Source: Clostridia bacterium (GTDB taxonomy: Bacteria > Bacillota > Clostridia > Lachnospirales > Cellulosilyticaceae). Taken from it: a stretch of DNA of 64,000 nucleotides. Location: assembly GCA_029239755.1 (NCBI GenBank), contig JARBUI010000007.1, forward strand, positions 82,040 through 146,039. The letters are read 5' to 3'. The first letter of the stretch is position 1. Every line of letters starts with the position of its first letter. A program made the position numbers and the translations under genes. The notes beneath the pieces are model-generated. The model did no database searches. It was not told the origin of the DNA and was given only the letters and a program-made list of their open reading frames with translations. This document shows, in pieces, positions 10,156-59,996 of the stretch.

Positions 10156-11028
10156 CTACCCTTTTACTCCACCTGCTGTCATACCCTCAATAAAGTATTG
10201 TTGGAAGAATAAAAACACAATAAGTATAGGAAGAATTGCCATAACTGAACCAGCAATAAGTACGTCGTAGTTATTACCATATGGTGTAATAAGAGTAGCA
10301 AGACCTATAGGTAATGTAAATTTCTCCTGAGATCTTAGTACGATTAACGGCCATAAAAATCCATTCCAGCTGTTCATCCCTACAAATATACCCATTGCAG
10401 CAAAAGATGGTGCCATAAGTGGCAGGATAATCCTACCAAAGATCCCATATTCTGAACATCCATCAATTCTGCCTGCTTCCATAAGCTCTCTAGGGATACC
10501 GCTTAAATACTGCCTAAAGAAGAAAATTGGAGCCGGTGCGGCCACAAATGGAAGAATAATTCCCCACATAGAGTCAATAAGCTTCATCCCTACTATTTGT
10601 TTATATAAAGGCAGCATAATGATTTCCATAGGTATCATCATAATCAAAATAACACACATAAAGATTTGGTTTTTATATTTAAAGTCATACATAGCAAAAC
10701 CATAGCCAACGATCGCACTTACTATAAGTGTGAGTGCAGCTTGAATAAATGTGATAAAGATGCTATTTTTAAACCACATAAAATAATTGTTTTCCCCTGT
10801 AAATAAGAAAATAAAATTCTTTAATGACATATTCGGGAAGTCAAGTCTAATATTAAGTCCGTATCTTAATAACTCTTTAGACGGCCTAAACGCTGCTAGT
10901 GTAATACAAAAGATCGGAAAGAGCACAATGAGCGCTAAGGCTATGAAAAAGAGAAACATAAGTATTGCTGATGGTGTTATCTGTGTTTTTTCTTTAAATT
11001 CTTTTTGTTTTTTCTTTTTGCTCATCAT
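10156..11028 (-). CDS. Carbohydrate ABC transporter permease (AraQ/MalG type)
   Basis: MalG-type EAA loop ELMEAGRIDGCSEYGIFGRIILPLMAP; C-terminal QQYFIEGMTAGGVKG. Confidence 0.95.
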   Translation of the reverse strand: MMSKKKKQKEFKEKTQITPSAILMFLFFIALALIVLFPIFCITLAAFRPSKELLRYGLNIRLDFPNMSLKNFIFLFTGENNYFMWFKNSIFITFIQAALTLIVSAIVGYGFAMYDFKYKNQIFMCVILIMMIPMEIIMLPLYKQIVGMKLIDSMWGIILPFVAAPAPIFFFRQYLSGIPRELMEAGRIDGCSEYGIFGRIILPLMAPSFAAMGIFVGMNSWNGFLWPLIVLRSQEKFTLPIGLATLITPYGNNYDVLIAGSVMAILPILIVFLFFQQYFIEGMTAGGVKG

Positions 11029-11958: not shown

Positions 11959-11997
11959 ATCACTCCCTCCTGCTACGCTAGTTACGCATCATATTAT

Positions 11998-12050
11998 GTA
12001 GTAATATAGCACCTTCGCAGCGTTTGCTGCCCTGGTGCTATATCTACTAC
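11998..12050 (-). promoter_or_regulatory. Long intercistronic stem-loop between SBP and permease genes (no U-run)
   Basis: gtagtaatatagcacc..gcagc-gttt-gctgc..ggtgctatatctactac; nested inverted repeat with no following T tract on the minus strand. Confidence 0.75.
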
Positions 12051-12065
12051 TTTGTTACCATTTAA

Positions 12066-13412: not shown

Positions 13413-13426
13413 AATTTATACCCTCC

Positions 13427-14947
<1,521 letters not shown>

Positions 14948-20807: not shown

Positions 20808-21860
20808 TTATTTTTTAGAGTTATTTTTCTTTATTTTACCGCCTTGTTTGTTGTGTACTTTCTTATTCTGTTTATTGCTAGTTTTATTATCTTGAGTTTG
20901 ATTTATTTTACTATCTTTTTTTTTATCTCCATTAACCTGCTCTTTATTGTTTTGCTGATTAGCTGCTTTATTATCTTTCTTTGTTTCACTCTGATCTTTG
21001 GATAATTGATCTAGTTCAGTTTCATTATCTGTTTCATTTCTATCTTGACTATCAGAAGTTTCTGGAAGTGTGTTATCTTGTTTATCAGCTTTACTATTTT
21101 CCTTCATGTCTTTTTTAAGTTCTTTTATTGATTTCATAATTTCCTTAACAGAAGTATCCTTATATTCCTCTACTACTATTTTGTCATCTAAAGCCTGTAA
21201 CTTTTGTATAAGGTTAAGCTTTCCAGGGGTAATCCCTATTTCTTTTGCCTCAACCCTTCGCTCAAGTGCCACATTTTCTGTTATGACTTCAACCTCAATT
21301 TCTTGCACTGCAATATATTCTTCTGCGGCTTCTTTAGAAGCTTCAGTCAGCTTTTGTGCTTCCTCACTATCATCAGTGACTGAAGTAAGAGCAACTGCTC
21401 CCCCACCTTCTTTATTAAAGAATCCTTCTTTGTCAGCTTCTTCGATAATCTCTTTCACCCCTGCCTCAACCTTCTTATTGAGGACACTGGTGATTTCTAG
21501 AATTTTTTCGCCTTCTCTATTATAACCTTTGGCTTCTACAATCCTATCCCATCTATTAATTCCTAGTTCTATACTAGGATTGATATCAACATCCAGATAG
21601 GCTACTGGTTCTTTATAGTAACTGTGCCCCTTAACAATTCCTGTAAGCAGCAGCATGCACACCACCACAGATGCTACCATTACATTCTTAGAATATACAT
21701 TCCAGAAGTACCTTTTTTTAATTCCTGCTTTATGCAATACGGATGATTTAATTCTAGCTGCCGTTTGAGTATTAACTGCAAAAAGTACATTCGTATCTAA
21801 TAACTGATCAACTTCTTCTAAGCTTAATTCTTCAAGTATATTTGTTAATTCAGTTTCCAC
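20808..21860 (-). CDS. RsgI-like anti-sigma factor, single TM, low-complexity K/N/Q-rich C-terminus
   Basis: TM segment VMVASVVVCMLLLTGIV followed by AYLDVDINPSIELGINRWDRIVEAKGYNREGEKIL, typical of RsgI-type extracytoplasmic domains; overlaps the sigma-factor gene by 11 nt. Confidence 0.8.
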   Translation of the reverse strand: METELTNILEELSLEEVDQLLDTNVLFAVNTQTAARIKSSVLHKAGIKKRYFWNVYSKNVMVASVVVCMLLLTGIVKGHSYYKEPVAYLDVDINPSIELGINRWDRIVEAKGYNREGEKILEITSVLNKKVEAGVKEIIEEADKEGFFNKEGGGAVALTSVTDDSEEAQKLTEASKEAAEEYIAVQEIEVEVITENVALERRVEAKEIGITPGKLNLIQKLQALDDKIVVEEYKDTSVKEIMKSIKELKKDMKENSKADKQDNTLPETSDSQDRNETDNETELDQLSKDQSETKKDNKAANQQNNKEQVNGDKKKDSKINQTQDNKTSNKQNKKVHNKQGGKIKKNNSKK

Positions 21861-22428
21861 TTCTTTTCGCTCCTTCCCAAACCTTTTTTAATTTTATAAG
21901 TGCCCTTGAAACCCTTTTATCTATCGTATTTACTTTTATCCCCATCACTTCACTAATAGCTTTTGAAGGCTGCTGAAAAAAGTATCTGCGTATTAATATT
22001 TCACTGTCTGGTTCACCTAATGCCTTAATTTCCTCAATCAGGATACGTCTTTGCTCTTTATCACTATAGATCTTTTCATTATCCATGTTTAGGTCTGCAA
22101 ACTCTAATTCATTAACCGTTTCCAGTGAAACTACTTTACTATTTTGTTTATAATGTCTGCGATAAATATCAATTGCTTTCCTTTTTGCAATAAGAGCTAA
22201 AAAAGCTTTTAGTGATCCTTTATTAAGATCTATTTTTGTTCTGTTTTTATAAACTTCGTAAAATACATCACTAACACATTCTTCAACGTCTTCCCTACTA
22301 CAAATCGTGGCAATCTTACTATGTACAATGGTATACACAAGACCCATATAAGTATCCATCATAAGTTCCAGTCCTTTATCCTGCGCGCGATGTAAAAGAT
22401 CCAAAATCTCATCATCTGTAGCCACCAT
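21850..22428 (-). CDS. ECF-type RNA polymerase sigma-70 family factor
   Basis: Region 2 (EDVEECVSDVFYEVYKNRTKID...LIAKRKAIDIYRR) and region 4 (ISEVMGIKVNTIDKRVSRALIKLKK). Confidence 0.88.
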   Translation of the reverse strand: MVATDDEILDLLHRAQDKGLELMMDTYMGLVYTIVHSKIATICSREDVEECVSDVFYEVYKNRTKIDLNKGSLKAFLALIAKRKAIDIYRRHYKQNSKVVSLETVNELEFADLNMDNEKIYSDKEQRRILIEEIKALGEPDSEILIRRYFFQQPSKAISEVMGIKVNTIDKRVSRALIKLKKVWEGAKRSGN

Positions 22429-34566: not shown

Positions 34567-34758
34567 TTATTTTTCCTCCTAATTTCCTATTTAATTTAAT
34601 TTCAGTATATTGTAAAAATCTCCTCTTTACAATAGAAAAATCTATGATATATATTAACTTATTAATGATCTGTAATATACCCTAAAATCAAAAAGTACTA
34701 AAATTATAATAATAACTCATAAACTTCTTACAACTGCAAGAAATTCATGAGTTTCTAT

Positions 34759-35264: not shown

Positions 35265-35326
35265 TCTACTCAAATTCAATAGTTGCTGGTGGTTTCCCTG
35301 TGCGGTCATACATAACACGGTTAACC
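35265..35326 (-). repeat. Displaced duplicate of the guaA 3' end (62-bp direct repeat, distal att-like copy)
   Basis: 58/62 identical to 48331-48392; reads [19 protein letters not shown]-stop on the minus strand. Confidence 0.9.
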
Positions 35327-38300
35327 TTTAGGCATATCTATCAACTTATCTAATCTGATTAACACAATCATAAGTTCTGCTCTAGTAAGTGCTTTTTCAG
35401 GGAGCATCTCATCCTTATTGGCCCCATTTAGTAACCCAGTTGCTACGCAATAATCAATAGCTTCTTTATACTTGGTATCTTTAATATCTTTAAAGCGCAT
35501 ATTTTCTCTTACTGTCGGCAGCTTGCCTTCTGTAATATCATACAGAACCTGTGCCAGTATTTCTCTTGATAATGGCTTATTCTCAAGCTTAGCTATAGTA
35601 GCCAAAGTTGTCTCTTGTAACTTAGAACCAACAGATGCTATATTACTAAATGCCCAGTTCTCTTTATCTGTAATGTACTTCTCTACTGTGCTCCTTGGCA
35701 ATTTCATTTCTGTTACATTATTTAATAGCAATACTCTATTTAAGAATGTAAAAGTATCTGCAACTTTTAATGCTTCCTTAGGTTTAAAGGTTCCATCCGG
35801 CATACCCGTTACTAACCCTAGTTCTGCTGCCTTTTTAATTGATTCATTGCCCCAGTGTTGTTCGGGGACATCTTTAAAACTTGCATTTTTAATAGATTTT
35901 AATGTAACTTCTGTAATTATTGTTGAAATATCTATCCCTATTTGTTTTAACAGCTCTGGTTTCTCTAGCATTTCTTGTATCTGTTTATCTGTAAACTTAT
36001 TATTGGTAAGTTCTTTAATTTGTTCTACTTTTAATGTAATCTTAAGACTTGTATATGGTGTGTTTTCCTTAAAGTTATTAGCTATATCTTTTTTATCTGA
36101 ATCACTTAATTTATTAATAACTTGTTCCGTTGGCGGCAACTTTACTGTACTGTTACTGTTACTGTTACCGCTACTTCCACCTGTTGATGGTGTGTGTGAT
36201 TCTATATTGCTGATAACTTTACTTACTTCATTTGATACATGATTTTGACTATCTTTTGCTCTTGCATAGATTGTCATATTTTCAGCAACTTCAAATGCTT
36301 GATGATATGTTTTCCATATACCATTATTCCCCAACTTATACTCTAATGCACTTCCTCCATCTTTCTGTGCTGCCGTAATGGTTACTGTCACTTTATTTGT
36401 TTTGCCTTCTGGAGTTGTGCTTATTTGTGGTCCATTGATTACTACCGGTTCATTTACTTCTATATTACTAATTACTTTACTTACTTCACTTGATGTATTT
36501 CGTTGACTATCTTTTGCTCTTGCATAAATTGTCATATTTTCCGTAACATCAAATGCTGACTCATAAATTCTCCACTCACCATTAACTCCTAGTTTATACT
36601 CTAATAGACTTCCTCCGTTTGCTTGAGCTTTTGTAATTGTAACTGTCACTTTACTGGTCTGGCTTTCTGGCGAGGCACTTATTTGTGGGGCACTTACTGT
36701 CACTGGATTATTTAGCTCTTCTTTAGATACTATTAACCAGCTCAGTTGTACATCTGAGTTGCTGCCTGTATTAACTGGTTTTATGGTTACTTTTAAATCT
36801 TGATCAACTATAATGTTTGCATACTCATAAGTCTTTTCATTTCCATCAATAACAATACCACTTTGTTTTGCAACATCATTAATAAATATATTTGCTTTTC
36901 TATTTCCGTTAGCCCACTGCGCCCATGGATCATAAAGCCCAAGATAGACTGTATATTTCCCAGGTTGAAGCCCTTTAAAGAAATAGTCAATATTGCGATT
37001 TGAACTGTCGCTTTTCACATGACGCAGACTCTGGTAAATACCTTGTCCTGTTCCTGTCGTATCTGTATTACCTGTATAGCCCCAAGTACTCGTACCACTA
37101 ATAAATTCTTGATCATTAACTGTTTTATTAATTAGACTTGAACCCATAAAGTTTTTCATCTGAATATATTCTTCAGACGAGTTATCTCCGCCGTTCACAA
37201 AATAAAGTATATTACTTGGAATCACATACATATTGAATGAAATCTTTTGTCCACTCTCTAATGTCCCATTAACAGTTATTTCACCAACAGTCTTAAACGT
37301 GTTTTGAGTCGTTTGCCATGTCACTTGAGCTGATACTTGTGGAGATCCACCTTTTTGTACTGTTATTTGACTTGGAAGCTGCGGCGTTATTCCATAGGCA
37401 GTCATTTCTGGCATAGGTGTTATTATTTTTAGTTTTCCCATAGTATCGAGTAAGTCCATCGTCCATTCCTCGACCCATTCAATACCTATTCTGCTATCTG
37501 ATTCAAACTTTATAGGTAGCCAGATATATCTAGAATCTGCAAGGTTTGCATCATCTGGATATGTCCAGCGATCTGCCATAAACATAAATTTACCATTTTC
37601 AGCATCTATGGGTAATACATAAGTACTTTGTGACTGGAATGTATTTCCATAACCATCTCCAATACAAGGATCTCCCATATCTGTCCAAGGACCAAACATA
37701 CTATCTGCCATAGCATATTTTGCTTGATTTGGAGCCCAGCCTGTACAGCCTGAAGAAATGAGATAATATTTATCATCGTATTTAAATACTGCTGGTGCCT
37801 CTCTATAATCACCTTGATGCACTCTAATATAGTCTGTACCAATCACACCTTTGTAAGCTGTATCTCTTATTGAATTTCCTTGACTATCTGTCAGATTATC
37901 TTTATGCCATCCTGCCACATCTAAATAATCATCTGTTAGCTTAGAAATATAAAGCGTCCCATTTTCTTCACTTGCATAAATGATATAAGCCGTTCCATCA
38001 TCCTCCACAAAAAGGTTCATATCTCTCGCCATACCTTGATTTGTTCTAGCTGGATCAGGATCTTGGTCTAGTCTGTAGCTTCTAATGTATGTAAAGGGAC
38101 CTGTAGGACTGTCACTTATAGCAACCCCTGCATTTGCTTTCGCATAGTTTGCAGTAGACCACTCTGTAGGTCCATCTGCATGGAACCACATAACCCATTT
38201 ACCTGTGCTTTCATTGTAAATAACTTTAGGTCTTTCCATAACAGCCGTGTTAATATCTAAATCTCTAAATATATCCGTCTTATCTGTTCTTCCTGCATAT

Positions 38301-41038
38301 AAAGTTTGAAGCTGTGCATCACTCTCAAATTGATCCATAGATTCTATAGCTCTTAGGGCAAGTCCTTCGTCTGTCCAGTTATATAAATCTGTAGAAGTGT
38401 AACATCTTACTCCTCTTAACGGCCTGTAACCATTAGTTTTATCTTCACCATACCAATAATACTTGTGGTTTACTTTATCATACCATATCCCACCACCATG
38501 AGCTTGGATGCGTTCTCCTTTTGTGTCTACCCACTTTGTTCCTGGCTGAATACTTGCATTAGACTCTGGTTGTGCCCCTGATTTATATATTTTTGCATAG
38601 TCAAGTGCAATTGCTTCTCCTGATGAAGCATCATTTTTATTTCCTGTTACCTCAATGACAATAGTATGCTGTCCATTTGTAAGTATCCCTGTATCAAAAA
38701 TACTGCTGTCTTCATCTCGAAATGCACTGTAAAGGTCTACTTCAACTGGTGTCCCTCCATCTACTGTAATATTGGCTTTTCCATGATTGTTAGCTTTAAT
38801 GCCATAAATTTGTGCTTGACTACCTGTAAAATGTAAAGTCGCTGTGTCACCTACATTAGATGACCATACATTATCATTTGAGTAAGCTCCTGAATATCCA
38901 TAATAATCCCAAGTGCCATTATACACAAATCGATTAACTTCGGTTTCACCTGTTATTGTTGATTCATTGAGTTTTATTAAGCTATCATCATAAACTACAT
39001 TTTCAAGCACATAAGTTGTAATAGACTGTCTATCAATAACATCTGTTAACACGCCATTTTCAATCGTTACATCTTGTTCTTGTTCACAATTTTGATTGTT
39101 TGATGTCCTGTAAACTTTTGCAGTATTCCCTACACTATTGAATCCTGTTAAGTTAAATGCAACTTGTTTATTCTCTGTATTTGAGTCATTAATAGTAACA
39201 AAAGTTAATTTTCCATTTGCCTTATCATAAAAAGCAACAGTCTTATCATCATTCGTCTCTAACATGACAGAACCTGGTCTAATAAATTTACTATATTGCA
39301 TCATACTATAGTACTTTTTAGTTGTCCTAAACTGTTCTGCCTCTAAGCCTTTTACGCCATCTCCTTCAAAGTTAGCTAAAATAAGTCCCCAGTTACTATT
39401 TTCACCTTGTTTACCATCCATTGTAGGCATCATATTAGGCCAGTTTTCAACTGCTTGCCATATAACCCACGCTGTAGGCTGAATATTCTTTATATCATCT
39501 GTAATACGCCTTGCAAACTCAATACCAGGTACAATATTATCTGGACCATATGGCGCGGATCCACCTAAATCTACTTCCGACATCCATAAATCTTTGCTTT
39601 TCATAGCTGCTGCATTTTTAGTTTCTTTTCTCTGATTTCCACCATAAGTATGAACATTCCACTTATCCATACTATCTTTAGTTTCTTGGCTAAAACTTTT
39701 AAAGTTATTAAGCCCTGTATTTAGAATACTCTCATCCATTGCAGCTACACGTATATTAGCTAAATCTTTGTCTGCTAAGGATTGATGTGTAAGTTGAATC
39801 ATTTGTTCTTGCTTATCGACATCAAAATGACACCCTTCTTGTCCGCCATTAAGCTTCCAATAATTTGTATAAGGCTCATTAAGTGGCTCTAAATAGTCAA
39901 ATTCAATACCTTCATTTTCTTTGAAATGTTTAGCAACTTCTGTCAGATAGTCTGCAAAGTCATCATAATATTGATCTTGTAAGTTATTTGCCCATCCACC
40001 ATCACTTCCTGATGCACAGCCAGATACTGTCATGAAATATGGTGGTGTATTTGAAAAGGCTTCCGTAATATCAGCGCCTCTTGCAATAGCATCTTTAAGT
40101 ACCTGAATTTGATTAGCATCTGCCTCCCAATTATAGTTGAGGGTGCCATCTCCATTGAACCCTGTGGCAAATCCCTCCATTTCGCCGCCTGCTCTCATAT
40201 GGTCATGTCCAGGGGCATCTCCTCCACCAATATTGTATCTTACGATATTAAGACCGAGTCCTTTATCTTTATCAAAAAGCAAATCTGATATAGCTGTCCT
40301 ATTTGCTTCTGACCATCCTCCTATGACATTTGCAAACCAAACAAGGGACGTTCCCCATCCATCAAAAGTTTGATATTGATCTTCTGGTGAAATTGTAATT
40401 GTTCCTTCGCTCACCGTTTCCGCTGGCACTAATTCTATGCTAAAGTTATCTATGTAAGCTTCTGAAGTATTCCCAGGTATATACACATAAATCCTTGCTT
40501 TTCCTGCGACATTTGTTTCAAAATCCACACTTAACTCCTGATAATCTTCTGTAAGTGTTCCATTTTGATAAAACTTACTTGATCCTTCGCATCCCAGTTC
40601 AATACTGTTCCCAGCACTTCCTTTAACCATAGCTTTTAACGTATACCATGTATAGGGTTGAAGGCCTTCCAGTGGTTGTTCTATAGCTTTATTTCCGTCA
40701 GCTAACTTTGCACAAGCACTTACATTTATTCCATTTGTTGAATCAAGACTAAACATAAGGTCTCCTGATGCCCAACCAGGGTTTTCCCATCCTGTTAATC
40801 CTTCTGTAAAATCAGGATTTTTAATTATTCCCGCCTCGCTTGACGCTATTACATAAACTGGTGCTGTTTCGCTTCCTAATAATTCTAATGTCGATGGTGT
40901 AGTTTGCTCTTCTTGGCTGATAAATGTCTCTGGTGTTTCTAGAATGTTCGTTTGCACTTCATTGCCATACGTTAAAAGTGATTGAGTCAATAGTGTTACC
41001 ACACTTAGCAAAGCTACTAGCTTTTTCCTCATAATCAT
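35321..41038 (-). CDS. Giant SLH-anchored multimodular glycosidase: CBM-like, GH30, CBM, GH43 (subfamily 24-like), malectin-like, two X2/CHB-HEX-like modules, three SLH
   Basis: True start likely at 41038 or 41032 (MIMRKKLVALLSVVTLLTQSLLTYGNE, RBS aggagg), not 41215. GH30 acid/base LNEPYTNYW and nucleophile WMSEVDLGG; GH43_24-like KWVDTKGERIQAHGGGIWYDKVNHKYYWYGE; C-terminal SLH FKDVPEQHWGNESIKKAAELGLVTGMPDGTFKP. Confidence 0.87.
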   Translation of the reverse strand: MIMRKKLVALLSVVTLLTQSLLTYGNEVQTNILETPETFISQEEQTTPSTLELLGSETAPVYVIASSEAGIIKNPDFTEGLTGWENPGWASGDLMFSLDSTNGINVSACAKLADGNKAIEQPLEGLQPYTWYTLKAMVKGSAGNSIELGCEGSSKFYQNGTLTEDYQELSVDFETNVAGKARIYVYIPGNTSEAYIDNFSIELVPAETVSEGTITISPEDQYQTFDGWGTSLVWFANVIGGWSEANRTAISDLLFDKDKGLGLNIVRYNIGGGDAPGHDHMRAGGEMEGFATGFNGDGTLNYNWEADANQIQVLKDAIARGADITEAFSNTPPYFMTVSGCASGSDGGWANNLQDQYYDDFADYLTEVAKHFKENEGIEFDYLEPLNEPYTNYWKLNGGQEGCHFDVDKQEQMIQLTHQSLADKDLANIRVAAMDESILNTGLNNFKSFSQETKDSMDKWNVHTYGGNQRKETKNAAAMKSKDLWMSEVDLGGSAPYGPDNIVPGIEFARRITDDIKNIQPTAWVIWQAVENWPNMMPTMDGKQGENSNWGLILANFEGDGVKGLEAEQFRTTKKYYSMMQYSKFIRPGSVMLETNDDKTVAFYDKANGKLTFVTINDSNTENKQVAFNLTGFNSVGNTAKVYRTSNNQNCEQEQDVTIENGVLTDVIDRQSITTYVLENVVYDDSLIKLNESTITGETEVNRFVYNGTWDYYGYSGAYSNDNVWSSNVGDTATLHFTGSQAQIYGIKANNHGKANITVDGGTPVEVDLYSAFRDEDSSIFDTGILTNGQHTIVIEVTGNKNDASSGEAIALDYAKIYKSGAQPESNASIQPGTKWVDTKGERIQAHGGGIWYDKVNHKYYWYGEDKTNGYRPLRGVRCYTSTDLYNWTDEGLALRAIESMDQFESDAQLQTLYAGRTDKTDIFRDLDINTAVMERPKVIYNESTGKWVMWFHADGPTEWSTANYAKANAGVAISDSPTGPFTYIRSYRLDQDPDPARTNQGMARDMNLFVEDDGTAYIIYASEENGTLYISKLTDDYLDVAGWHKDNLTDSQGNSIRDTAYKGVIGTDYIRVHQGDYREAPAVFKYDDKYYLISSGCTGWAPNQAKYAMADSMFGPWTDMGDPCIGDGYGNTFQSQSTYVLPIDAENGKFMFMADRWTYPDDANLADSRYIWLPIKFESDSRIGIEWVEEWTMDLLDTMGKLKIITPMPEMTAYGITPQLPSQITVQKGGSPQVSAQVTWQTTQNTFKTVGEITVNGTLESGQKISFNMYVIPSNILYFVNGGDNSSEEYIQMKNFMGSSLINKTVNDQEFISGTSTWGYTGNTDTTGTGQGIYQSLRHVKSDSSNRNIDYFFKGLQPGKYTVYLGLYDPWAQWANGNRKANIFINDVAKQSGIVIDGNEKTYEYANIIVDQDLKVTIKPVNTGSNSDVQLSWLIVSKEELNNPVTVSAPQISASPESQTSKVTVTITKAQANGGSLLEYKLGVNGEWRIYESAFDVTENMTIYARAKDSQRNTSSEVSKVISNIEVNEPVVINGPQISTTPEGKTNKVTVTITAAQKDGGSALEYKLGNNGIWKTYHQAFEVAENMTIYARAKDSQNHVSNEVSKVISNIESHTPSTGGSSGNSNSNSTVKLPPTEQVINKLSDSDKKDIANNFKENTPYTSLKITLKVEQIKELTNNKFTDKQIQEMLEKPELLKQIGIDISTIITEVTLKSIKNASFKDVPEQHWGNESIKKAAELGLVTGMPDGTFKPKEALKVADTFTFLNRVLLLNNVTEMKLPRSTVEKYITDKENWAFSNIASVGSKLQETTLATIAKLENKPLSREILAQVLYDITEGKLPTVRENMRFKDIKDTKYKEAIDYCVATGLLNGANKDEMLPEKALTRAELMIVLIRLDKLIDMPKG

Positions 41039-41100: not shown

Positions 41101-41982
41101 TCACTCTTTTACTGCACCGGCTACTATGCCTGCAAATATGTACTTTTGAAATACAATGTAAATAAGAATAGTTGGTACCATAACAACTACTATAGCTGCA
41201 CTTAAATATTCCCATGCACTAAATTGCGAACTGCTAAAAGACATTAATGTAGTCGTAACTGTACGCAGTTTTGCAGATGGCATGTACAGATACGGAATAT
41301 ACATATCATTCATAACTTCTACCGCCTTTATAATAGCAAGGGTAGCTGTAGCTGGTTTTAAAAGCGGGAAAATAATTTTATAAAAGATTTGGAAGTATGT
41401 TGCCCCGTCTATCATAGCGCTTTCATCAAGAGATACAGGAATTTTATCTATAAACTGCATATAAATATAAAGCTGCATTAAATCAGCTGCTGCATAAATA
41501 ATAACAGGGGCCCATATTGTGTTGTACACACCTATACGGCTCATGATAGAGAAACGTGCTATTTCACAAATTTGTCCCGGAATGACCATACCTAATGCAA
41601 ATAATGCAATAAGTGTCTTTTTAAATTTAAAGTCAAAGCGGTGCAAGCAATAAGTAGTCATCGTTCCTAATAAAGCATTTACTGCAACACTTATTACAAC
41701 TAAGAAAATGGAATTTTTAAACCCCAGTAATATTTTCCCTTTGGTAAATACAACCATATAGTTTTCTAAATTCAAATTGGTTAAAGAAGGTAATTGAAGC
41801 GGAAAATCATTGCCTATTTGCGGAGCTGTTTTAAAAGATGCAAATAAAACAACTAACATCGGTAAAAATACAATAACCGTAATGCATGCCATAATGCTAT
41901 AAATAAGCCATTGATCCAGCTTTAGTGATGCTGATTTGGATTGTTTTCTGACATCATGGTTAATGCGAAAACTTGTCTGCAT
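41101..41982 (-). CDS. Carbohydrate ABC transporter permease (MalG type)
   Basis: DESAMIDGATYFQIFYKIIFPLLKP EAA motif; C-terminal FAGIVAGAVKE. Confidence 0.94.
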   Translation of the reverse strand: MQTSFRINHDVRKQSKSASLKLDQWLIYSIMACITVIVFLPMLVVLFASFKTAPQIGNDFPLQLPSLTNLNLENYMVVFTKGKILLGFKNSIFLVVISVAVNALLGTMTTYCLHRFDFKFKKTLIALFALGMVIPGQICEIARFSIMSRIGVYNTIWAPVIIYAAADLMQLYIYMQFIDKIPVSLDESAMIDGATYFQIFYKIIFPLLKPATATLAIIKAVEVMNDMYIPYLYMPSAKLRTVTTTLMSFSSSQFSAWEYLSAAIVVVMVPTILIYIVFQKYIFAGIVAGAVKE

Positions 41983-41983
41983 A

Positions 41984-42871
41984 TTATTTCCCCTCCTTTA
42001 AACCAAAAATATTTTTTTGAACCCAGTTAAATACAACTATCATCATAATTAATGAGATCCCCATTGTGGATGCCATTCCAAAGTTTTTATACTTAAAAGC
42101 CATCTGAATTGTACTAAGAGCAAAAGTGCTGCTTGCAGTACCTGGTCCCCCTTGTGTTATAACAAAAGGTATATCAAAAACTTGCAGTGCTCCTCTTAAG
42201 TTGAGGAATAACATAAGTTCTACAACGATTTTGATACTTGGTAAGATAATAAAAATAAGACGTTTAAAAGCATTGGCTCCGTCTACTACTGCCGCTTCAA
42301 TAATATCTTCTGGAATAGATTGCAACGCTGCTAAAAACAGAACGATATGAAATCCCGAATATCTCCAAAGCGAGACACTTACCAGTGAGTAATTAACAAC
42401 ACTAGGATTACTTAACCAGTTTTGTATCCAGCCTTCTAGACTAAGCATCTTTAAAATTTCGTTTAATGCCCCATTTACAGGACTAAAGAAAAAACTAAAA
42501 GCATAGGCTACAGCTACGCCATTAATAATATAGGGCATAAAAACAACCGATTTAAAAAATTTCATTCCTCTTAATTTACTGTTAAGTATAACTGCTGCAA
42601 TAATCTCCAAAGGAATAAAGCCTAAATGGATAATAAAATACAAAAAGTTGTTTTTTAAAGACACCCATATTTCCTTAGAGTTAAAGATAAGATCTTTATA
42701 ATTCTTAAATCCTATTATTTGTTGTACCTCACTAAAACCATCCCAACTTGTAAAGCTTGTTTGTAGAAGTTTTAGAGTTGGATAAACTACAAATACTAAT
42801 AATAATAGTACTGGAATAAACAAAAAAGTGATTAGGAGTACATTTTTTTGTGTCTTCAAACTATTCATCAT
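41984..42871 (-). CDS. Carbohydrate ABC transporter permease (MalF type)
   Basis: IEAAVVDGANAFKRLIFIILPSIK EAA motif; six TM. Confidence 0.94.
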   Translation of the reverse strand: MMNSLKTQKNVLLITFLFIPVLLLLVFVVYPTLKLLQTSFTSWDGFSEVQQIIGFKNYKDLIFNSKEIWVSLKNNFLYFIIHLGFIPLEIIAAVILNSKLRGMKFFKSVVFMPYIINGVAVAYAFSFFFSPVNGALNEILKMLSLEGWIQNWLSNPSVVNYSLVSVSLWRYSGFHIVLFLAALQSIPEDIIEAAVVDGANAFKRLIFIILPSIKIVVELMLFLNLRGALQVFDIPFVITQGGPGTASSTFALSTIQMAFKYKNFGMASTMGISLIMMIVVFNWVQKNIFGLKEGK

Positions 42872-42952: not shown

Positions 42953-44308
42953 TTACTTCGTCGTGCTTTGTGCTTCTTGCCATGATTTATTTAGATTATT
43001 CATTAACTCATCTAGATCTTTACCTGACATCATCTCTTGACCTATTTGTTTTACATCAAATTTAGTTGCTGCTTGTATAGCTTGGAATTTTTTATTGCCT
43101 CCATCATAGATAACTGGATTTACATCGACACCTTCAAATGCTTCTGCAATGCAAGGCTCAACTCCTGCTTCAATAGATTTCATAGTAGAATTAACATTCA
43201 TAGCTTTAGTGAATGCTTGATAATTGGCTGCATCTGTTAAAAACCAGTTAATAAATTCTTTAGCCGCCGCCTCATTTTTACCACCTTGAGCTGTAGATAA
43301 AAATGTATCTGCCATTGTTATTGTATTTAACTTTTCTGAAGCATCTTTTCTTACAGGTAATAAGAAAGTTCCAATTTTATCACTTTTATCGCCCATAGCC
43401 TTCTGAGCATCTGCTAAAAACCATTGTCCTGCACAAAGCATTGCCCCTTTTGTACCAAACATTGCTTTTACTTGATCAAATCCCATACCAAGTGGATCTG
43501 TTCCAAATACCTCTGCGCTATATAGCTGATCAATCATTTGATATGCCTGATAAAATGGTTTATCAGGTGTAAAGGGCTGTGGATCTTCTGCCATTTTATT
43601 CCATAGCGTTCCATCATTAGCAACTAAAGACGGCATAAATTCGTTAAAAGGATAATCTGGCCAAGCATCTTTCCCTCCCATAAGGATTGGTATGTATTTA
43701 CCACCTGCTTTAATCGTTTCTGCAGCTTTTATAAACTCATCCCATGTTTTAGGTACTTCTAGATTGTATTCTGCAAATATTTCTTTGTTGTACCATACAA
43801 ACTCATTAAAAGCTTGAGTAGGAAGTGCTACTATTTTGCCATCTACTTTAAATGTCTCTGCATAAATACTGTCTCTAGCTGCTTCTAAATCAGATAAATC
43901 AGCTGCAATAGTACCAAAATCAGCTAACATATAAGGCTTTAATGCAAAAATATCTGGCATTTGATTGGCTGTCTTTCTGATTTTCATAGCTTGTTCAAAT
44001 TCGCCTGTATCTTTGAGATTCTCAATTTCAATGGTTACGTTAGGCTTCACCTTCTTATACTCGGCTACGACATCATAATTGTTTTTGGTAAAAATATTAT
44101 CCCACTGCAATAAAGTTAAAGTGATTTCTTCTTCCGTTTCAACCTTTGATTCAGCGCCAGCTGCTACTTCTTTAGTATCCGGAGTTGCTTCAGTTGTTTC
44201 TGCATTCTTCCCGCAACCCACAAAGCTAGATATTAACATTGTAATCGAGCAAAAAATTGTTAATCCTTTAAATAATTTTGTTCTTTTCATACTAACTCCT
44301 CCACTCAT
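42953..44308 (-). CDS. Extracellular sugar-binding lipoprotein
   Basis: SSFVGCGKN lipobox; SBP family 1 layout; start may be MKRTKLFKG. Confidence 0.92.
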   Translation of the reverse strand: MSGGVSMKRTKLFKGLTIFCSITMLISSFVGCGKNAETTEATPDTKEVAAGAESKVETEEEITLTLLQWDNIFTKNNYDVVAEYKKVKPNVTIEIENLKDTGEFEQAMKIRKTANQMPDIFALKPYMLADFGTIAADLSDLEAARDSIYAETFKVDGKIVALPTQAFNEFVWYNKEIFAEYNLEVPKTWDEFIKAAETIKAGGKYIPILMGGKDAWPDYPFNEFMPSLVANDGTLWNKMAEDPQPFTPDKPFYQAYQMIDQLYSAEVFGTDPLGMGFDQVKAMFGTKGAMLCAGQWFLADAQKAMGDKSDKIGTFLLPVRKDASEKLNTITMADTFLSTAQGGKNEAAAKEFINWFLTDAANYQAFTKAMNVNSTMKSIEAGVEPCIAEAFEGVDVNPVIYDGGNKKFQAIQAATKFDVKQIGQEMMSGKDLDELMNNLNKSWQEAQSTTK

Positions 44309-44512: not shown

Positions 44513-46120
44513 TTATTTTGATTTAAAACAGTTTGGAGATGTTCCCGTTGCCTTTTTAAACACTCTGCTAAAATGTTCTACATTGGCATACCCTACTTGA
44601 TCACTTATTTCATACATTTTTAGATTTGTCTTACTTATTAGCTCTTTTGCCTTTTCTAATCGTACTCCAGTCAAATAATCTTTAAAGCTCATCTCTACTT
44701 CTTTAGTAAATAGGGTACTTAAATGACTGGCACTTAATTCCACATGCTCACTCACTTTAGCTAGACAAAGTTCCTTATCTGAATAATTTTGATTAATAAA
44801 ATTTATGGCTTTTAAGATAATTCTATTCCTTTTAGTATTCACTGTACTGCTCAACTTCTCAAATAAATTAAATACGATTTGTTTAACGTAGTCATTTATT
44901 TCTTCTAAAGTTTCAAATGTTATTATCCTTTCATAAAAGTCTGATTCATTGATATAACATCTTAGCCTTTCTTCTCCTATTTCATTAATGTATCGCCCTA
45001 AAATAAATACGATTTCCATGTAGAAGGGATAGGATTGATTAATTTGCTCCAGCTTTAAATGATACATGGATTCGAAAATTTGCTCAAGTTCTTGCGACAG
45101 CTTTTCTTTATCCATTACCCTCAATGCTCCTAATATTTTTCCTTCTTTATCTATTTTATCCAAGTTATAATTGTGACTATCAGCTGACGCATCCTCCGGA
45201 AAAATATTTCTTCCCTTGCCAAGTATAAATCTTAAATTTGCATAAGCTTTTGCCTCATCAGCACATAGCTTAGCTTGATTTATGCCTTGTCGAATCTCGC
45301 TAACTCCTATTGTTATAGTAATGTTAATATAATTCTGAATGACATAGCGGATACTCTTTAACAGCTCATTCAATTCACCCTTTATATGAGCTACACTTAC
45401 CCCTTCAAAACATAATATGATTAAGTATTCATCCGGGGACACACTTACTACCTCCCCTTTCCCTCTGTCTTTCAAGACTTCTTCTACCGAATGTACCATA
45501 GAATTCATGAACATTACTAGTGAATAGTCCGTGTATTTTTCAATAATCTTTTTGTAGTCATCTACTAATAGCTGGCAGACAACTATATTACTTTGCTTCA
45601 TCAGCCTGATGCCAAGTGTCTCAAAAGAATACTTGTATTGTTCTACTCCTCCCTTTAGGAGCATATCTTTTAAATAATGATTTTTAGTATCCTTAATCTT
45701 TTGATCTGCTGTCTCTTTTTTCTCATCTAAGTTTATAGTCTTCTGATGTTTACTTAGTACATGGATAAATGTATCCAGAAGACTATCTGGTGTCATTTCT
45801 GACTTTAAGATATAATCCTCTACCCCAAGTTTAAAGGCTTGTCTCAAAAGATTATAGTCATTATACCCACTTAAAGCTATGACTGGTATATTGTATTCCA
45901 TCTTCCTAAGTTCAGCTAAGAACTCTATGCCATCCATAATAGGCATGTTAATATCCGTTACTACAAGATCAATTTCAGGCTTCTCTACTAATAATTTTAA
46001 TGCCTGCTTACCATTAGAGGCTTCGAAGCCTACATCAAAATTGTGTTTTCCCCAATCGACAAGGGATCTTATAGCAATCCTTACTAAGGGTTCATCATCA
46101 ATAATCATTACTCTATACAT
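44513..46120 (-). CDS. AraC-type response regulator (YesN-like)
   Basis: Receiver VDLVVTDINMPIMDGIEFLAELR; C-terminal AraC HTH CLAKVSEHVELSASHLSTLFTKEVEMSFKDYLTGVRLEKAKELI...VGYANVEHFSRVFKKATGTSP. Confidence 0.94.
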   Translation of the reverse strand: MYRVMIIDDEPLVRIAIRSLVDWGKHNFDVGFEASNGKQALKLLVEKPEIDLVVTDINMPIMDGIEFLAELRKMEYNIPVIALSGYNDYNLLRQAFKLGVEDYILKSEMTPDSLLDTFIHVLSKHQKTINLDEKKETADQKIKDTKNHYLKDMLLKGGVEQYKYSFETLGIRLMKQSNIVVCQLLVDDYKKIIEKYTDYSLVMFMNSMVHSVEEVLKDRGKGEVVSVSPDEYLIILCFEGVSVAHIKGELNELLKSIRYVIQNYINITITIGVSEIRQGINQAKLCADEAKAYANLRFILGKGRNIFPEDASADSHNYNLDKIDKEGKILGALRVMDKEKLSQELEQIFESMYHLKLEQINQSYPFYMEIVFILGRYINEIGEERLRCYINESDFYERIITFETLEEINDYVKQIVFNLFEKLSSTVNTKRNRIILKAINFINQNYSDKELCLAKVSEHVELSASHLSTLFTKEVEMSFKDYLTGVRLEKAKELISKTNLKMYEISDQVGYANVEHFSRVFKKATGTSPNCFKSK

Positions 46121-47883
46121 ACTTCATCCTCCCTGTCATTTAGTAATATAGGTAGTCTCAAAGAAACCTTTGTGTATGCATCCAATTCACTTTCTATCGT
46201 TATGCCATATATCTTGCCATGATTAAGCTGAATACGCTTATTTACATTTCCAACCCCCATACTTGTAAAACCCTTCTCATTTTTACAGTTTTCACTTAGT
46301 ACTCTACTGATTTGTTCAGATGACATACCAACACCAATATCTTTTATCTCAAAAATAACATTTTGATTGCACAGATACCCTGTAACACTTATAGATCCTT
46401 TTTCTTCACTATTGCATACACCATGTAGTACTGCGTTTTCAATGATAGGCTGTAATAATAAACGTAAAATATAGAACTCTTCGAGCTGCTCGTCTACCTC
46501 AAAGATTACATCAAATTTATCTGCATACCTAATTTTCATGATATCAATATAGCTTTTTAGATTCTCCAACTCATCTTTGATTTGAATATACTTACCCTTT
46601 TTACCAAATGATGCGTTTAGCAATTTGATAAGCGACTCTGTCATATGCCCTATATTATCTGCTTTAGCAATCATAGCCATAAAACGAATAGCATTTAAAG
46701 TATTGGATAAAAAATGCGGATTAATCTGAGATTGTAATACTTCAATTTCTGCTTTGTTTCTTTCTCTCTCTTTTTTATCTTTTTCATTAATCAGATTATT
46801 GATTTCATACACCATTCTGTTAAAAGCTTTTCCTAAATTATTAATTTCTTTATTAGCATGCAGCACTATAGTTGCTGTAAAATCGCCCTTCTCAACTTCA
46901 CCCATCTTTTCAGTTAATTTTCTAATAGGATTTAAAATATCTTTGAAATAAAATATTGAAAAGGATACAAACAAAAGAATCAAAATTAAAAACATAAAAT
47001 TGAGATAGGTATTAATGATTTTTACATCTTCCGTTATATAACTATGGTCTACTAGACTTACTACCTTCCATTGTACTTTTTCAACTGCTGCAGTTGTAAC
47101 AAGCATATTAGTATTAGTATCTACTTTTTCACTTATCATCGTCTTATCCCTAGCCATTAATATTACATTATCTTCATTAACTATAAATAAATTCCCTTTA
47201 CTTTTAAAGGGCTCCTTAGCGTAGTAAATGTCAGGTATATGACTCTTAAATACAACATAAATAACCTCTATTTTATTTTTTTCAGAAAGTTTCTGTGGAG
47301 TCACTGCCACAGAAATAGTATTCTTATCATTTTTGGTATTTAAAAATGAGGGTGAAAGCTCTGGAATAAATACTTTGTTTGGGTGTTTTTGTATATCACT
47401 GTACCAATCCATATTACGTATTATTTCTTGCCTTACCGATAAAGTATTTTTATAAGTGTAAGTACGTCCATCCTTCAGAAAAAATGCTACCGAAACAACT
47501 TCATTGTTATAATTAAATAGATAATTAAGATTACGATCTATCTGTTTAGAAATTTTAAATTTTAGATTTATAGCTTGTTCATAAGCCCATTCATTAACTA
47601 AGTCATTGATTACATTATCATTGGATAAGGTCGATGCAGCAAGAGAAGCTCGTTTAATATCATTACTTAAGTTATCAGCTACCTGAAGTACAAGTTGATT
47701 TAAATTATACGATGCATTTCTTAATAATGTATCCGTAACAACTGTACTCATTATTAGGTTAATACTGATAATAGGTACAACCAGTATCAATATAAATGCT
47801 CTGAAATACTTAAATCTCATACTGTATATCTTATTTTTCATACTCTTCATCCTCCTACTTGATCTTTTAAAATCATCCAACAA
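46108..47883 (-). CDS. Sensor histidine kinase (YesM-like)
   Basis: Two TM, HAMP, SQINPHFLSNTLNAIRFMA, LLQPIIENAVLHGV; overlaps the regulator gene by 13 nt. Confidence 0.94.
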   Translation of the reverse strand: MLDDFKRSSRRMKSMKNKIYSMRFKYFRAFILILVVPIISINLIMSTVVTDTLLRNASYNLNQLVLQVADNLSNDIKRASLAASTLSNDNVINDLVNEWAYEQAINLKFKISKQIDRNLNYLFNYNNEVVSVAFFLKDGRTYTYKNTLSVRQEIIRNMDWYSDIQKHPNKVFIPELSPSFLNTKNDKNTISVAVTPQKLSEKNKIEVIYVVFKSHIPDIYYAKEPFKSKGNLFIVNEDNVILMARDKTMISEKVDTNTNMLVTTAAVEKVQWKVVSLVDHSYITEDVKIINTYLNFMFLILILLFVSFSIFYFKDILNPIRKLTEKMGEVEKGDFTATIVLHANKEINNLGKAFNRMVYEINNLINEKDKKERERNKAEIEVLQSQINPHFLSNTLNAIRFMAMIAKADNIGHMTESLIKLLNASFGKKGKYIQIKDELENLKSYIDIMKIRYADKFDVIFEVDEQLEEFYILRLLLQPIIENAVLHGVCNSEEKGSISVTGYLCNQNVIFEIKDIGVGMSSEQISRVLSENCKNEKGFTSMGVGNVNKRIQLNHGKIYGITIESELDAYTKVSLRLPILLNDREDEVCIE

Positions 47884-55572: not shown

Positions 55573-56181
55573 TTATTCCAATAATTTTCGTATTGCTTGA
55601 TATAAATAAGGTTTGTATTCTTCAATAGGCAGGGGCTCATTAAATAAAATAGAATGATAACAAGTTGAGCCAACAAGTTCTATAATCATAAAAAAAGTAA
55701 CTTTGGGATTCTGAAGTCTTAATCCATCTTCAGATGCTCTTTTCATAAACATCTCAAAAATAGCTTTTGATACATTCCCTTTTAATTCCTCTTTTAAATC
55801 TTCTTTAAAGTAATTAGAATTAATCCCTGCTGATAAATTTTTATAGATAAATTTTAAGAGCTGCTGATTTTTAGTCAGTTCATTAATAATATAATCAATT
55901 ATAAATAAAAACTGTTCAATAAAGTTTGTGTAATTCATTTTACGGCTGGCGTTTATGGCATCATTAAACAATTTTACAGTTTTTATCGAAATAATAGCCT
56001 CTACTATTTCAAATCTATCTTTAAAATACAAATAAAAAGTTCCTTTTGCAACACCTGCTTCGTCTACTATGTCTTGTATGGTTGTTTCGTTTATGCCTTT
56101 TGAAATAAATAAATTAAAAGCTGTATCTAAAAGCTTTTGCTCTTTTTCCTGCTTTTTTTTGTTTATTTTACTCATTTGCAT
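55573..56181 (-). CDS. TetR/AcrR-family transcriptional regulator
   Basis: LLDTAFNLFISKGINETTIQDIVDEAGVAKGTFYLYFKDRFEI HTH. Confidence 0.95.
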   Translation of the reverse strand: MQMSKINKKKQEKEQKLLDTAFNLFISKGINETTIQDIVDEAGVAKGTFYLYFKDRFEIVEAIISIKTVKLFNDAINASRKMNYTNFIEQFLFIIDYIINELTKNQQLLKFIYKNLSAGINSNYFKEDLKEELKGNVSKAIFEMFMKRASEDGLRLQNPKVTFFMIIELVGSTCYHSILFNEPLPIEEYKPYLYQAIRKLLE

Positions 56182-56191
56182 CAGTTCCTTT

Positions 56192-57382
56192 TTATAAATT
56201 AATTTGACCCTTTGTATAAGCCTTTTGAGATACTATATTATTTGGGCTTTGATTAGTCCCGAATCTCTTTTTAAATACCAATAGAGACAAGGGCATAAAG
56301 ACTATAATATATAATACAAGATTTATAACATTTTGTCTAACCGTTACAAAAGTAAGCCCTTTTATCATAATCTCATCAAAAGGTCTGGCAAAATATATTA
56401 AAGGCCACAGAAGCTTTACCCCTCTCATCAAAAGTTCTGGCATTTGGTCAGCTGGCCAGACATAACCACAGGTTAAAAATGTAGGCAATGAAAGCATATA
56501 AGATACCTGACTAAATTTAGTTTTGTTTTTTGTTATGGCACATAAAAGTATTGCCGCACAGCTTATAGCAATGCTAAATAGAATACTCATAAGAAGAGCT
56601 AATTTTACATTTCCCGAAAAAATAACATTAAATTTTTTATGAATATAGCCTATAACAAGACCTCCTGTTGCCATTAATAGCGTACTTGCCAAAACTACCT
56701 TTGCTGCCAATTTTATAACTGTATGTTCTTTTGCAGTACTTTCTGGATTTCTTAAGATCATGGTTGCTAGTGCTGACAACATGAATTGCTGAAAAAACAC
56801 TGCAATAAATCCATAAATAAGATAATTGATATAAGCAAGTTTTGAATCATACAGCATTCTGTCTGTAAAATTAAATGATAGTGCCATATTACGTGCCGTG
56901 CTTTCTGACAAGGAGCCTTTGCCCGCTATCATTTTCATCTCTATGCCAGCTGATACTGTTTGGATAATTTCAGCTGCTCCTGCGTAAGCATTGTTACCTA
57001 TGATAACATTCGCTCCATTTGTAAGGATTAATATTTGCGATGCATTTCCTGACATGATGTCATCATTTAAATGAGGTGGTATATAAAGTCCCATATAAAC
57101 CTTTCTTTGGTCTATAAGATTTTGAAGCTCTGCTCTGTTTGCAGCATAGTATTTTACATTAAATCGTTCACTGTCATCAAAATATTGGATTACATTTCTG
57201 CTTAGACTGGTATTATCTTCATCTAAAACAGCGATACCAACATCATTAACATACTCATGATAATAAGCTCCTCCAAACCATATGGTTAAAACAGGGATAG
57301 CTAAAAATAGCAAAATAATAAGACCAGGCTTTTTGCACATAAACTCTATTTCTTCCTGAAGGCTTCTAAGGAATAGTTCCAT
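56192..57382 (-). CDS. ABC-2 type permease (YbhS/YbhR-like)
   Basis: N-terminal TM, ~150 aa extracytoplasmic domain, C-terminal TM cluster; VLDEDNTSLSRNVIQYFDDSERF. Confidence 0.88.
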   Translation of the reverse strand: MELFLRSLQEEIEFMCKKPGLIILLFLAIPVLTIWFGGAYYHEYVNDVGIAVLDEDNTSLSRNVIQYFDDSERFNVKYYAANRAELQNLIDQRKVYMGLYIPPHLNDDIMSGNASQILILTNGANVIIGNNAYAGAAEIIQTVSAGIEMKMIAGKGSLSESTARNMALSFNFTDRMLYDSKLAYINYLIYGFIAVFFQQFMLSALATMILRNPESTAKEHTVIKLAAKVVLASTLLMATGGLVIGYIHKKFNVIFSGNVKLALLMSILFSIAISCAAILLCAITKNKTKFSQVSYMLSLPTFLTCGYVWPADQMPELLMRGVKLLWPLIYFARPFDEIMIKGLTFVTVRQNVINLVLYIIVFMPLSLLVFKKRFGTNQSPNNIVSQKAYTKGQINL

Positions 57383-58539
57383 TTCTTGAATACCTCCCTT
57401 GGCTTAATATTGGGCCCTGCATAGATACCCATAATGGCTATAAACAGCATACTTAGCGTAAATAAAATCAAAAACCCTATATCTCCTCCTAGGTTTGTGA
57501 CATTTCCCTTTAAAAATAAGTTTCTTATGTTATCTCCATAATAATAATAAGGTATCGTTTTGGCATATATTTTATAAAAAGGGACCATTGACATAATGGG
57601 CCATGTATAGCCTATCATCACTGAATTAGGAATAATCATAAGCCCAATAACAGCCATAGCTGTCACTCTATTCTTTATCCACGAAGAAACGGCGATGCTT
57701 AAACTTGAAACGGCAAAAGCAAGTGCTATACTTAAAATAATGGCTATAATAAATGAACCTCTAAAAGGTAACTTAAATAAAACTATTTGAGCAAGAATAT
57801 TGGTTATGATAGCAATACTTCCCATTGTGCCATAAAAAATTATTTTCCCTATAGTATATCCTAGAACATCTCTTTTTTGATTTGTTCCTATGATGAGATT
57901 GATACAAAGAACAGCTGTAAGTGCTATTCCGGTCTGACACACCATTGTTCCATATCCTGGAAGCATGAAATAAGCAAAGTTCCTAGCAGGGTTATATAAT
58001 GTTCTGCTTTCAAAGCTTATTGGCATCCCAGTATGATAGGCTTCCTCTTCAGTCATATTAAGTCTTCCCTCAAGCTGTTTGATAGCTGCCCCAGTTCTTA
58101 TAGTCATAAGAATCTCACTCGCTTTAGCTTTTGCAACACTTGTGATACTCATATGGCTGCCATCATAAAGCATCAGAATTGAAGGAGATTGCAAGCTTGT
58201 TACTTCTTCCGAAAAGCGTTCAGGGATAACCATCCCTACTTTGACTTTACTTTCATCAATAAGACTTTGTAATGCTTCTTGATTATCTGCATAATACGCT
58301 AAATCAAAAGAATCATTGTCTGAAAAATATTGTATGATTTGCCTGCTAAGCTGAGAATCATCATAATCTACAACTGCCATAGGAATATGGTCAATGACAC
58401 CTTTTGAAAGCTCCCAGCTTATTAATAAGTTTATTAAAATAGGCATGATTAGCCCTATAATGATAATCAGTTTATCTATTTTCATCTTCTGAATTTCTTC
58501 TTTTATGCTTTCATATATACTTATACATGACTCATCCAT
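57346..58539 (-). CDS. ABC-2 type permease (YbhS/YbhR-like)
   Basis: Homologous to the adjacent permease: VVDYDDSQLSRQIIQYFSDNDSFDLAYYADN; overlaps it by 37 nt. Confidence 0.88.
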   Translation of the reverse strand: MDESCISIYESIKEEIQKMKIDKLIIIIGLIMPILINLLISWELSKGVIDHIPMAVVDYDDSQLSRQIIQYFSDNDSFDLAYYADNQEALQSLIDESKVKVGMVIPERFSEEVTSLQSPSILMLYDGSHMSITSVAKAKASEILMTIRTGAAIKQLEGRLNMTEEEAYHTGMPISFESRTLYNPARNFAYFMLPGYGTMVCQTGIALTAVLCINLIIGTNQKRDVLGYTIGKIIFYGTMGSIAIITNILAQIVLFKLPFRGSFIIAIILSIALAFAVSSLSIAVSSWIKNRVTAMAVIGLMIIPNSVMIGYTWPIMSMVPFYKIYAKTIPYYYYGDNIRNLFLKGNVTNLGGDIGFLILFTLSMLFIAIMGIYAGPNIKPREVFKKWNYSLEAFRKK

Positions 58540-58576
58540 TTGATCACTGCCTTTCCTGACTTAAAGCTAAATCACT

Positions 58577-59983
58577 TTACTTTTTATTTTCAAACTGAAT
58601 GAAGGAACTCATGCCTGGCCTTAATACTTCTTCATTATTATCTAATTTTATTTTTACTCCAAAAGACACAATGTCAAATCCCCCGTTATCATTTGTAGCT
58701 CGCTTGACTGCAAAGTTAGGCTGTTTATTGATTGTTTTAACTTCCCCTGTAAACATTTTATCTGGATATGAAGGCACTTTAACCTTTACCTTTTGATTTT
58801 CAGTTATCTTACCTAAATCAGTCTCTTTCACACTAACTTGTGTCCATGCACCTTGCAAGTTACTAACTATTGCAATTTGTGTCCCTGTAGATACCAGTTC
58901 CCCTTCTTCTGAATGAATAGCCGTAACAGTTCCATCCATTGGAGCAGTTAAAATAACGTTATCTAAATAGGCCTGAACTTCTGCAAGTGTCCCTTTAGCC
59001 TGAGCAACCAGCCCTTCTTTGGCCTCAACTCCTGCTTGTGCCTGATACAATAAGGCATTTGAGGATTGCACTGCTGCCATAGCCTGTGTGAGTTGCGCCT
59101 CTGCTGCCTGAATGCCTGCCTCTGCCTGCATAACTCTCGTCTTGCTCGCTTCTACACCTGCCATAGCCTGCTCGCTAACTGCAGCAGCTGCCATTTTATC
59201 TTCTGCTCTAGCACCTTCTTTGGCCATACTGAGTGTTTGTTCTACTAAATCCAGCTGCGCTTTTACCTCATCTAACTTTTGTTTAGAAACCGCTCCTTTT
59301 TCTTCTAGCAAGACCACTCTGTCATAAGATGTTTTCATCACATTATACGCCACTTGTGCTTGAGCTATCTCTTGATCTCTTGCTCCCTTATCAGCCTTAG
59401 CTTTTATTGCTGCTGCAGCCTCCTGCTGCTTCTGTGAAGCTTTTACTCCGGCTCTAGCTTCATTCGCCTTTTCCTTGGCAGCCTTTACCCCAGCTTTAGC
59501 CTGCTCAACAAGTCCATTTGATGCTTTAACGCCCGCCTTAGCCTGTTCAAGTTGTTGTTTTGAAGCCTTTAGAGCAGCTTCTGCCTGAGTAACACCAGCA
59601 GCTGCCTGTGATTTTTTTGCTTGCAGCTCTTCACTTGATATTTCTACCAGCCTATCCCCTTCTTTTACCTTTTGGCCTTCTTGAACATATATTTTTATGA
59701 CTTTCCCTGGAATTTTTGTATTGATGTTGACTTCCTTTGCCTCTATAACCCCTTGTGCTATAAGACCATCCCTTTTATTAAAAAGATCTTTTACCTTTAT
59801 GGCTCCTTCTTTACCACTTAAGTTTTCAGGCACAAGTGCTCCTACTGTTAAGATCATAGCAAGGAGAATACCTCCTCCAATATAATAAGTCTTTTTCTCT
59901 TTAAAAAGTTTTTTAAACTTTTCTTTATGTAAGTTAGATTGGATAGGTTTCTTTTCTAATTTATTTTTTATATATTTAAGCAT
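58577..59983 (-). CDS. HlyD-family periplasmic-adaptor/membrane fusion protein with long Ala-rich coiled coil
   Basis: VNINTKIPGKVIKIYVQEGQKVKEGDRLVEI lipoyl half, ILTAPMDGTVTAIHSEEGELVSTG second half. Start likely MLKYIKNK at 59983. Confidence 0.92.
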   Translation of the reverse strand: MLKYIKNKLEKKPIQSNLHKEKFKKLFKEKKTYYIGGGILLAMILTVGALVPENLSGKEGAIKVKDLFNKRDGLIAQGVIEAKEVNINTKIPGKVIKIYVQEGQKVKEGDRLVEISSEELQAKKSQAAAGVTQAEAALKASKQQLEQAKAGVKASNGLVEQAKAGVKAAKEKANEARAGVKASQKQQEAAAAIKAKADKGARDQEIAQAQVAYNVMKTSYDRVVLLEEKGAVSKQKLDEVKAQLDLVEQTLSMAKEGARAEDKMAAAAVSEQAMAGVEASKTRVMQAEAGIQAAEAQLTQAMAAVQSSNALLYQAQAGVEAKEGLVAQAKGTLAEVQAYLDNVILTAPMDGTVTAIHSEEGELVSTGTQIAIVSNLQGAWTQVSVKETDLGKITENQKVKVKVPSYPDKMFTGEVKTINKQPNFAVKRATNDNGGFDIVSFGVKIKLDNNEEVLRPGMSSFIQFENKK

Positions 59984-59996
59984 GATAATGTCCCCT

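Follow-up and report, generated by a model that had tools for sequence, protein, structure and literature searches.

Our window, a 64,000-nucleotide stretch of Clostridia bacterium DNA, encodes on its minus strand a protein of 1,905 amino acids in a single open reading frame (41038..35321; open reading frame list and translation). Pfam matches within it have E values of 6e-34 for GH30_2, 4e-16 for GH43 and 9e-17 for SLH; the modules and the neighbouring genes are collected in Table 1. A ribosome-binding site, AAGGAGGT, lies at 41053-41046, ahead of the ATG at 41038. We take this ATG as the start because the ribosome-binding site and the signal peptide are found there and because the in-frame ATG at 41215, which would give 1,964 residues and was rejected, falls within the permease gene. 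Without its signal peptide the protein has a computed mass of about 208 kDa and a pI of 4.7. The first-pass annotation had described one polypeptide of about 1,900 residues with a signal peptide, and the reading frame was found where it had been placed, on the minus strand, which had not been specified. The motifs that had been quoted, LNEPYTNYW, WMSEVDLGG and WVDTKGERIQAHGGG...YYWYGEDK, all occur in the translation.

Table 1. Modules of the enzyme and features of the surrounding locus, in window coordinates.
Feature	Residues	Coordinates	Strand	Basis
GH30-GH43-SLH protein	1,905 aa	35321..41038	-	ORF, translation, RBS
Signal peptide, MIMRKKLVALLSVVTLLTQSLLTYG	~1-27	40958..41038	-	direct reading of sequence
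N-terminal beta-sandwich, possible CBM	62-205	40424..40855	-	weak match to 8xmz; strands with pLDDT 50-66 in model
GH30_5-type catalytic barrel and side beta-sandwich	212-680	38999..40405	-	Pfam, PDB alignment, model
Module between catalytic domains, weak CE2_N-like beta-sandwich	700-825	38564..38941	-	Pfam E 0.014, below cut-off
GH43_24-type beta-propeller	826-1215	37394..38563	-	Pfam, PDB alignment, model fold ranking
Big_4-like and malectin-like modules	1215-1441	36716..37396	-	weak Pfam; one block with GH43 common to L163
Two tandem chitobiase-C/Fn3-associated-like repeats	1445-1600	36239..36706	-	weak Pfam and visible repeat
SLH repeats	1718-1900	35339..35887	-	Pfam, PDB alignment, relatives
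Sensor histidine kinase with dCache and HAMP		46108..47883	-	domain search
Response regulator with AraC-type DNA-binding domain		44513..46120	-	domain search
Extracellular sugar-binding protein (SBP_bac_1)		42953..44308	-	domain search, PDB, NCBIfam
Sugar ABC permease (UgpA/MalF-like)		41984..42871	-	domain search, NCBIfam
Sugar ABC permease (MalG-like)		41101..41982	-	domain search, NCBIfam
Possible terminator downstream of enzyme gene		34714..34753	-	pattern match only

The enzyme gene is likely the last of an apparent operon with genes for a histidine kinase, a regulator, a sugar-binding protein and two permeases; 62 bases separate it from the last permease gene. An adjoining transporter and sensor had been claimed, and the permeases, sugar-binding protein and histidine kinase are indeed encoded upstream, with no transporter ATPase in the operon. 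Such an absence is common where several importers rely on a shared ATPase. The operon itself also has no gene for a side-chain debranching enzyme. The nearest solved relatives of the sugar-binding protein are general sugar binders, and its NCBIfam matches, GanS among them, fall below cut-off. Across the genome there are three matches to GH2 and two to GH42, while the one GH30_2 match and the one GH43_24 match both lie within this protein.

Other minus-strand regions of the window were also noted. A second sugar cluster (3167-14944) encodes two GH43 proteins, one with a GH43_C lipocalin-like domain, a GH51 enzyme, a GH51-type C-terminal-domain protein, a sugar-binding protein, two permeases and a chemoreceptor; it looks like a system for arabinan or arabinoside use and could supply side-chain arabinosidases. 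An ECF-like sigma factor is encoded beside an RsgI-type anti-sigma factor at 20811-22428, and such pairs sense polysaccharide in some clostridia. The region 55576-61580 carries a TetR regulator, two ABC-2 membrane proteins, an HlyD-type protein and a match to OEP (PF02321, outer-membrane efflux), the last in an apparent Clostridia genome without an outer membrane.

Among solved GH30 structures, the GH30 domain is nearest to GH30_5 and is predicted to be an endo-beta-1,6-galactanase. Its top PDB match is 24td (Sa16Gal30A, a GH30_5 endo-beta-1,6-galactanase) at 170 bits, followed by 7n6h (GH30_10) at 84 bits and 3clw (GH30_4) at 79 bits; the beta-1,6-glucanase 5ngk scores far lower than 24td. 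Streptomyces GH30_5 proteins that best match 24td form the clade adjoining the window's GH30 (SH-aLRT 89). Alignment identifies Glu388 as the predicted acid/base and Glu488 as the predicted nucleophile, and comparison with the residue list for Sa16Gal30A (PMC13431644) shows that Asn216, Glu217, Gln229, Tyr294, Glu320, Trp350 and Trp359 are kept as Asn387, Glu388, Gln400, Tyr465, Glu488, Trp527 and Trp550, respectively. Gln229 reads the axial O4 of galactose in Sa16Gal30A (PMC13431644). An earlier proposal of a GH30 beta-1,6-galactanase with intact catalytic motifs is thus consistent with the nearest structure and with the retention of both catalytic glutamates. There are also differences. Asp354 is replaced by Glu531, Lys114 by glycine and Trp222 by tyrosine, loop 8 is longer, and the secondary galactan-binding site is lost (Trp341 to asparagine, Arg301 to lysine and Asp302 to glutamate). 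This site is reported to be conserved in several GH30_5 members but is not presented as a requirement (PMC13431644). Since it is not kept and Lys114 is a glycine, the product pattern may differ from that of Sa16Gal30A.

The GH43 domain is, among solved GH43 structures, nearest to GH43_24, and we predict that it is an exo-beta-1,3-galactanase. The top PDB matches are 6eug/6euf (BT3683/BT0265), 3vsf (Ct1,3Gal43A) and 7bys (Pc1,3Gal43A), with other GH43 structures far below. In GH43_24 the usual catalytic aspartate is absent and a glutamine is thought to serve; the alignment predicts Glu1080 as the acid and Gln1137 as the base. We compared the eight residues of subsite -1 in Pc1,3Gal43A (7bys; PMC7939473), namely Glu57, Glu102, Arg103, Tyr126, Asp158, Glu208, Trp229 and Gln263. 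All eight are kept, as Glu865, Glu935, Arg936, Tyr965, Asp1006, Glu1080, Trp1101 and Gln1137. The resemblance to exo-beta-1,3-galactanases of GH43_24 noted in the first-pass annotation is therefore borne out by sequence, by fold and by the intact subsite -1. Two placements had been named in advance as speaking against the assignments, a xylanase GH30 and a non-galactanase GH43, and comparison with the PDB gave neither. A xylanase placement of the GH30 domain is rejected since 24td is the best PDB match and the NCBIfam XynC score, 55 bits, lies below its cut-off of 650.

An AlphaFold model was of uneven quality. The GH30 domain is confident, with pLDDT above 90 over most of its length, and matches GH30 folds in a library that predates 24td, but the GH43 half has a pLDDT of 56. 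Because of this low confidence we used the GH43 model for fold ranking only, and GH43_24 structures still rank first. The modules described earlier as CBM-like have weak matches (CE2_N, Big_4 and chitobiase-C/Fn3-associated), none of which reaches the Pfam cut-off; a Malectin match is seen in the homologous block of L163, a protein from another genome of the class. Of the three SLH repeats claimed, two are clear in Pfam and the middle one is divergent, while the full stretch aligns end to end with the Sap SLH structures 3pyw/6bt4. Of 24 genomes from the window's taxonomic family, 21 encode PF04230, the CsaB-type wall-polymer pyruvyltransferase, among them other genomes of the genus. PF04230 has no match in the window's own assembly, which is 73% complete, though SLH proteins are present; an assembly gap is the probable cause.

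Relatives were searched domain by domain because a whole-length search gave mostly SLH proteins. A single-sequence scan of genome contigs gave no match; an alignment-based scan did. None of the other genomes among 391 sampled of the window's class combines GH30_5 and GH43_24 in one reading frame, and none of the approximately 20 other close GH30_5 reading frames in these genomes carries GH43_24. Among the best 79 loci from one genome per GTDB species, one, from Paenibacillus sp. FSL A5-0031 (L087), has GH30_5, GH43_24 and three SLH repeats in one reading frame. GH30_5 is present in 107 of 400 Paenibacillaceae genomes. We inspected all nine GH30_5 reading frames there that exceed 1,500 residues: seven, from seven species, contain both domains, six of these with three SLH repeats, and the other two (L201 and L202) have GH30 and SLH without GH43_24. 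Permease genes lie close to four of the fused genes (L196-L199). The combination of both domains in one protein, pointed out previously, is therefore uncommon but not unique.

Two observations were made on other proteins in these searches. In a Paenibacillus strain that has a fused protein, a further GH43_24 protein with an SLH anchor (L192) lacks GH30 and has a GH43 domain of the same type as that of the window. Separately, three GH30_5 proteins of the window's class (L041, L054 and L061) end in a segment weakly similar to the GH32N propeller. We considered whether this part of L041 could be a GH43, and it gave no PDB match; another fused partner of an unfamiliar kind may exist.

The fused Paenibacillaceae proteins (L087, L195 and L197-L200) share the order GH30_5, GH43_24 and C-terminal SLH with the window protein, L087 being 42% identical to it in GH30 and 44-48% in pieces of GH43. 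They differ in their linkers (F5/8 C, Flg_new and Big_2), in a longer GH43 insert and in forming separate GH30 and GH43 clades. Sa16Gal30A from Streptomyces avermitilis has the same fold, catalytic pair and galactose-reading glutamine but is a free secreted enzyme with a single catalytic domain and a secondary galactan site (24td; PMC13431644). Similarly, Ct1,3Gal43A, BT3683/BT0265 and Pc1,3Gal43A share the subsite -1 residues and the glutamine base, but these solved GH43_24 enzymes have no GH30-type second catalytic domain and use other anchors or CBMs. A. clariflavus has a GH43_24-CBM13-dockerin enzyme (PMC12037645). The overall strategy, a large acidic SLH-anchored hydrolase coupled to ABC import, is that of Paenibacillus sp. 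JDR-2, and the size and pI of the window protein are near the averages for the SLH-anchored carbohydrate enzymes of that strain (PMC4765114). In JDR-2, however, GH30 and GH43 are listed in separate SLH proteins, and the characterized systems act on xylan, beta-glucan and starch. In the open-access papers searched, we found none that joins GH43_24 and GH30_5 in one protein and none with an SLH-anchored GH43_24. The SLH-anchored multimodular hydrolase is a known strategy, within which the pairing of GH30_5 and GH43_24 appears new among the papers covered.

We consider it probable that the protein is exported, held at the wall and acts on type II arabinogalactan as a bifunctional glycoside hydrolase; the substrate proposed in the first-pass annotation is probably right. 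We infer the activities, synergy, anchoring, transported ligand and sensing from sequence and gene context. The GH30 beta-1,6-galactanase would cut the side chains and the GH43_24 beta-1,3-galactanase the backbone, with the SLH repeats holding both at the cell wall beside the sugar ABC importer. The adjoining two-component system would probably switch the unit on, and imported galacto-oligosaccharides could be finished inside the cell by GH42 and GH2 beta-galactosidases encoded elsewhere in the genome. That the whole is a unit dedicated to arabinogalactan proteins, as had been suggested, we likewise infer.

The origin of the fusion bears on this proposal. A single origin of the fused domains is rejected by the GH30 tree (AU p=0.002), and in the GH43 tree the window domain pairs with L163 (G165, 924 aa; 99/97), in which GH30 and SLH were not found, with the fused domains from Paenibacillaceae in a separate clade (100/100). 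The window protein and L163 are 55% identical over 677 residues of the GH43-Big_4-malectin block. In the window, L163, L136 and L192, 47-50 residues precede the ERPK motif of GH43, compared with 108-127 in the Paenibacillaceae fused set where measured, and the insert lengths are 48/145 against 108-127/127-131. A single ancestral fusion, or a single transfer from Paenibacillaceae, with later exchange of individual modules could account for the distribution, and one clade of fused domains is compatible with the GH43 tree (AU p=0.23). We regard such a history as improbable given the GH30 test, the block shared with a GH30-free protein, the unequal inserts and the dissimilar linker modules. Since the GH30 test rejects one origin and the GH43 topology and insert lengths agree, the better reading, within a limited sampling, is that the fusion was probably assembled at least twice, in the lineage of the window and separately in Paenibacillaceae. 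As the same pairing was apparently put together separately in Paenibacillus relatives, there is probably an advantage in joining both enzymes at the cell surface.

Both domains might nevertheless be galactanases that do not cooperate, the polypeptide serving for display and giving no more synergy than separate enzymes. Most sampled GH30_5 proteins indeed have no GH43_24 in the same reading frame, and the surface enzymes of Bifidobacterium longum for arabinogalactan are separate proteins (PMC8939339). On the GH30 tree the pairing with SLH arises two or more times, which points to an advantage of coupling, and we think the absence of cooperation unlikely, if a serious contender. Far less probable, in our judgement, is a GH30 domain with exo action or with a different target linkage, for example in beta-1,6-glucan or some other galactoside, so that there is no arabinogalactan enzyme pair. 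The glycine at Lys114, the lost secondary site and the longer loop 8 could be read in this way, and the one GH30_5 enzyme with a structure is only distantly related. Against it stand the retained galactose-reading glutamine and aromatic residues of subsites -1 and -2, the poor score of 5ngk and the nature of the partner domain, GH43_24. Our preferred reading, a bifunctional enzyme for arabinogalactan, extends to a more tentative suggestion: the protein may represent an unreported wall-anchored class, with backbone and side-chain galactanases in one chain, assembled independently since tethering works better.

To the first-pass annotation the present analysis adds residue-level support, the strand and a module map, the recurrence in Paenibacillaceae and evidence for more than one origin. 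In the known degraders of arabinogalactan proteins (Bifidobacterium, Bacteroides, Streptomyces and cellulosomal clostridia) the backbone and side-chain enzymes are separate. The fused protein could serve as a tool to trim arabinogalactan proteins and, with both enzymes on one surface protein that probably evolved more than once, the benefit of tethering on a branched polymer becomes directly testable.
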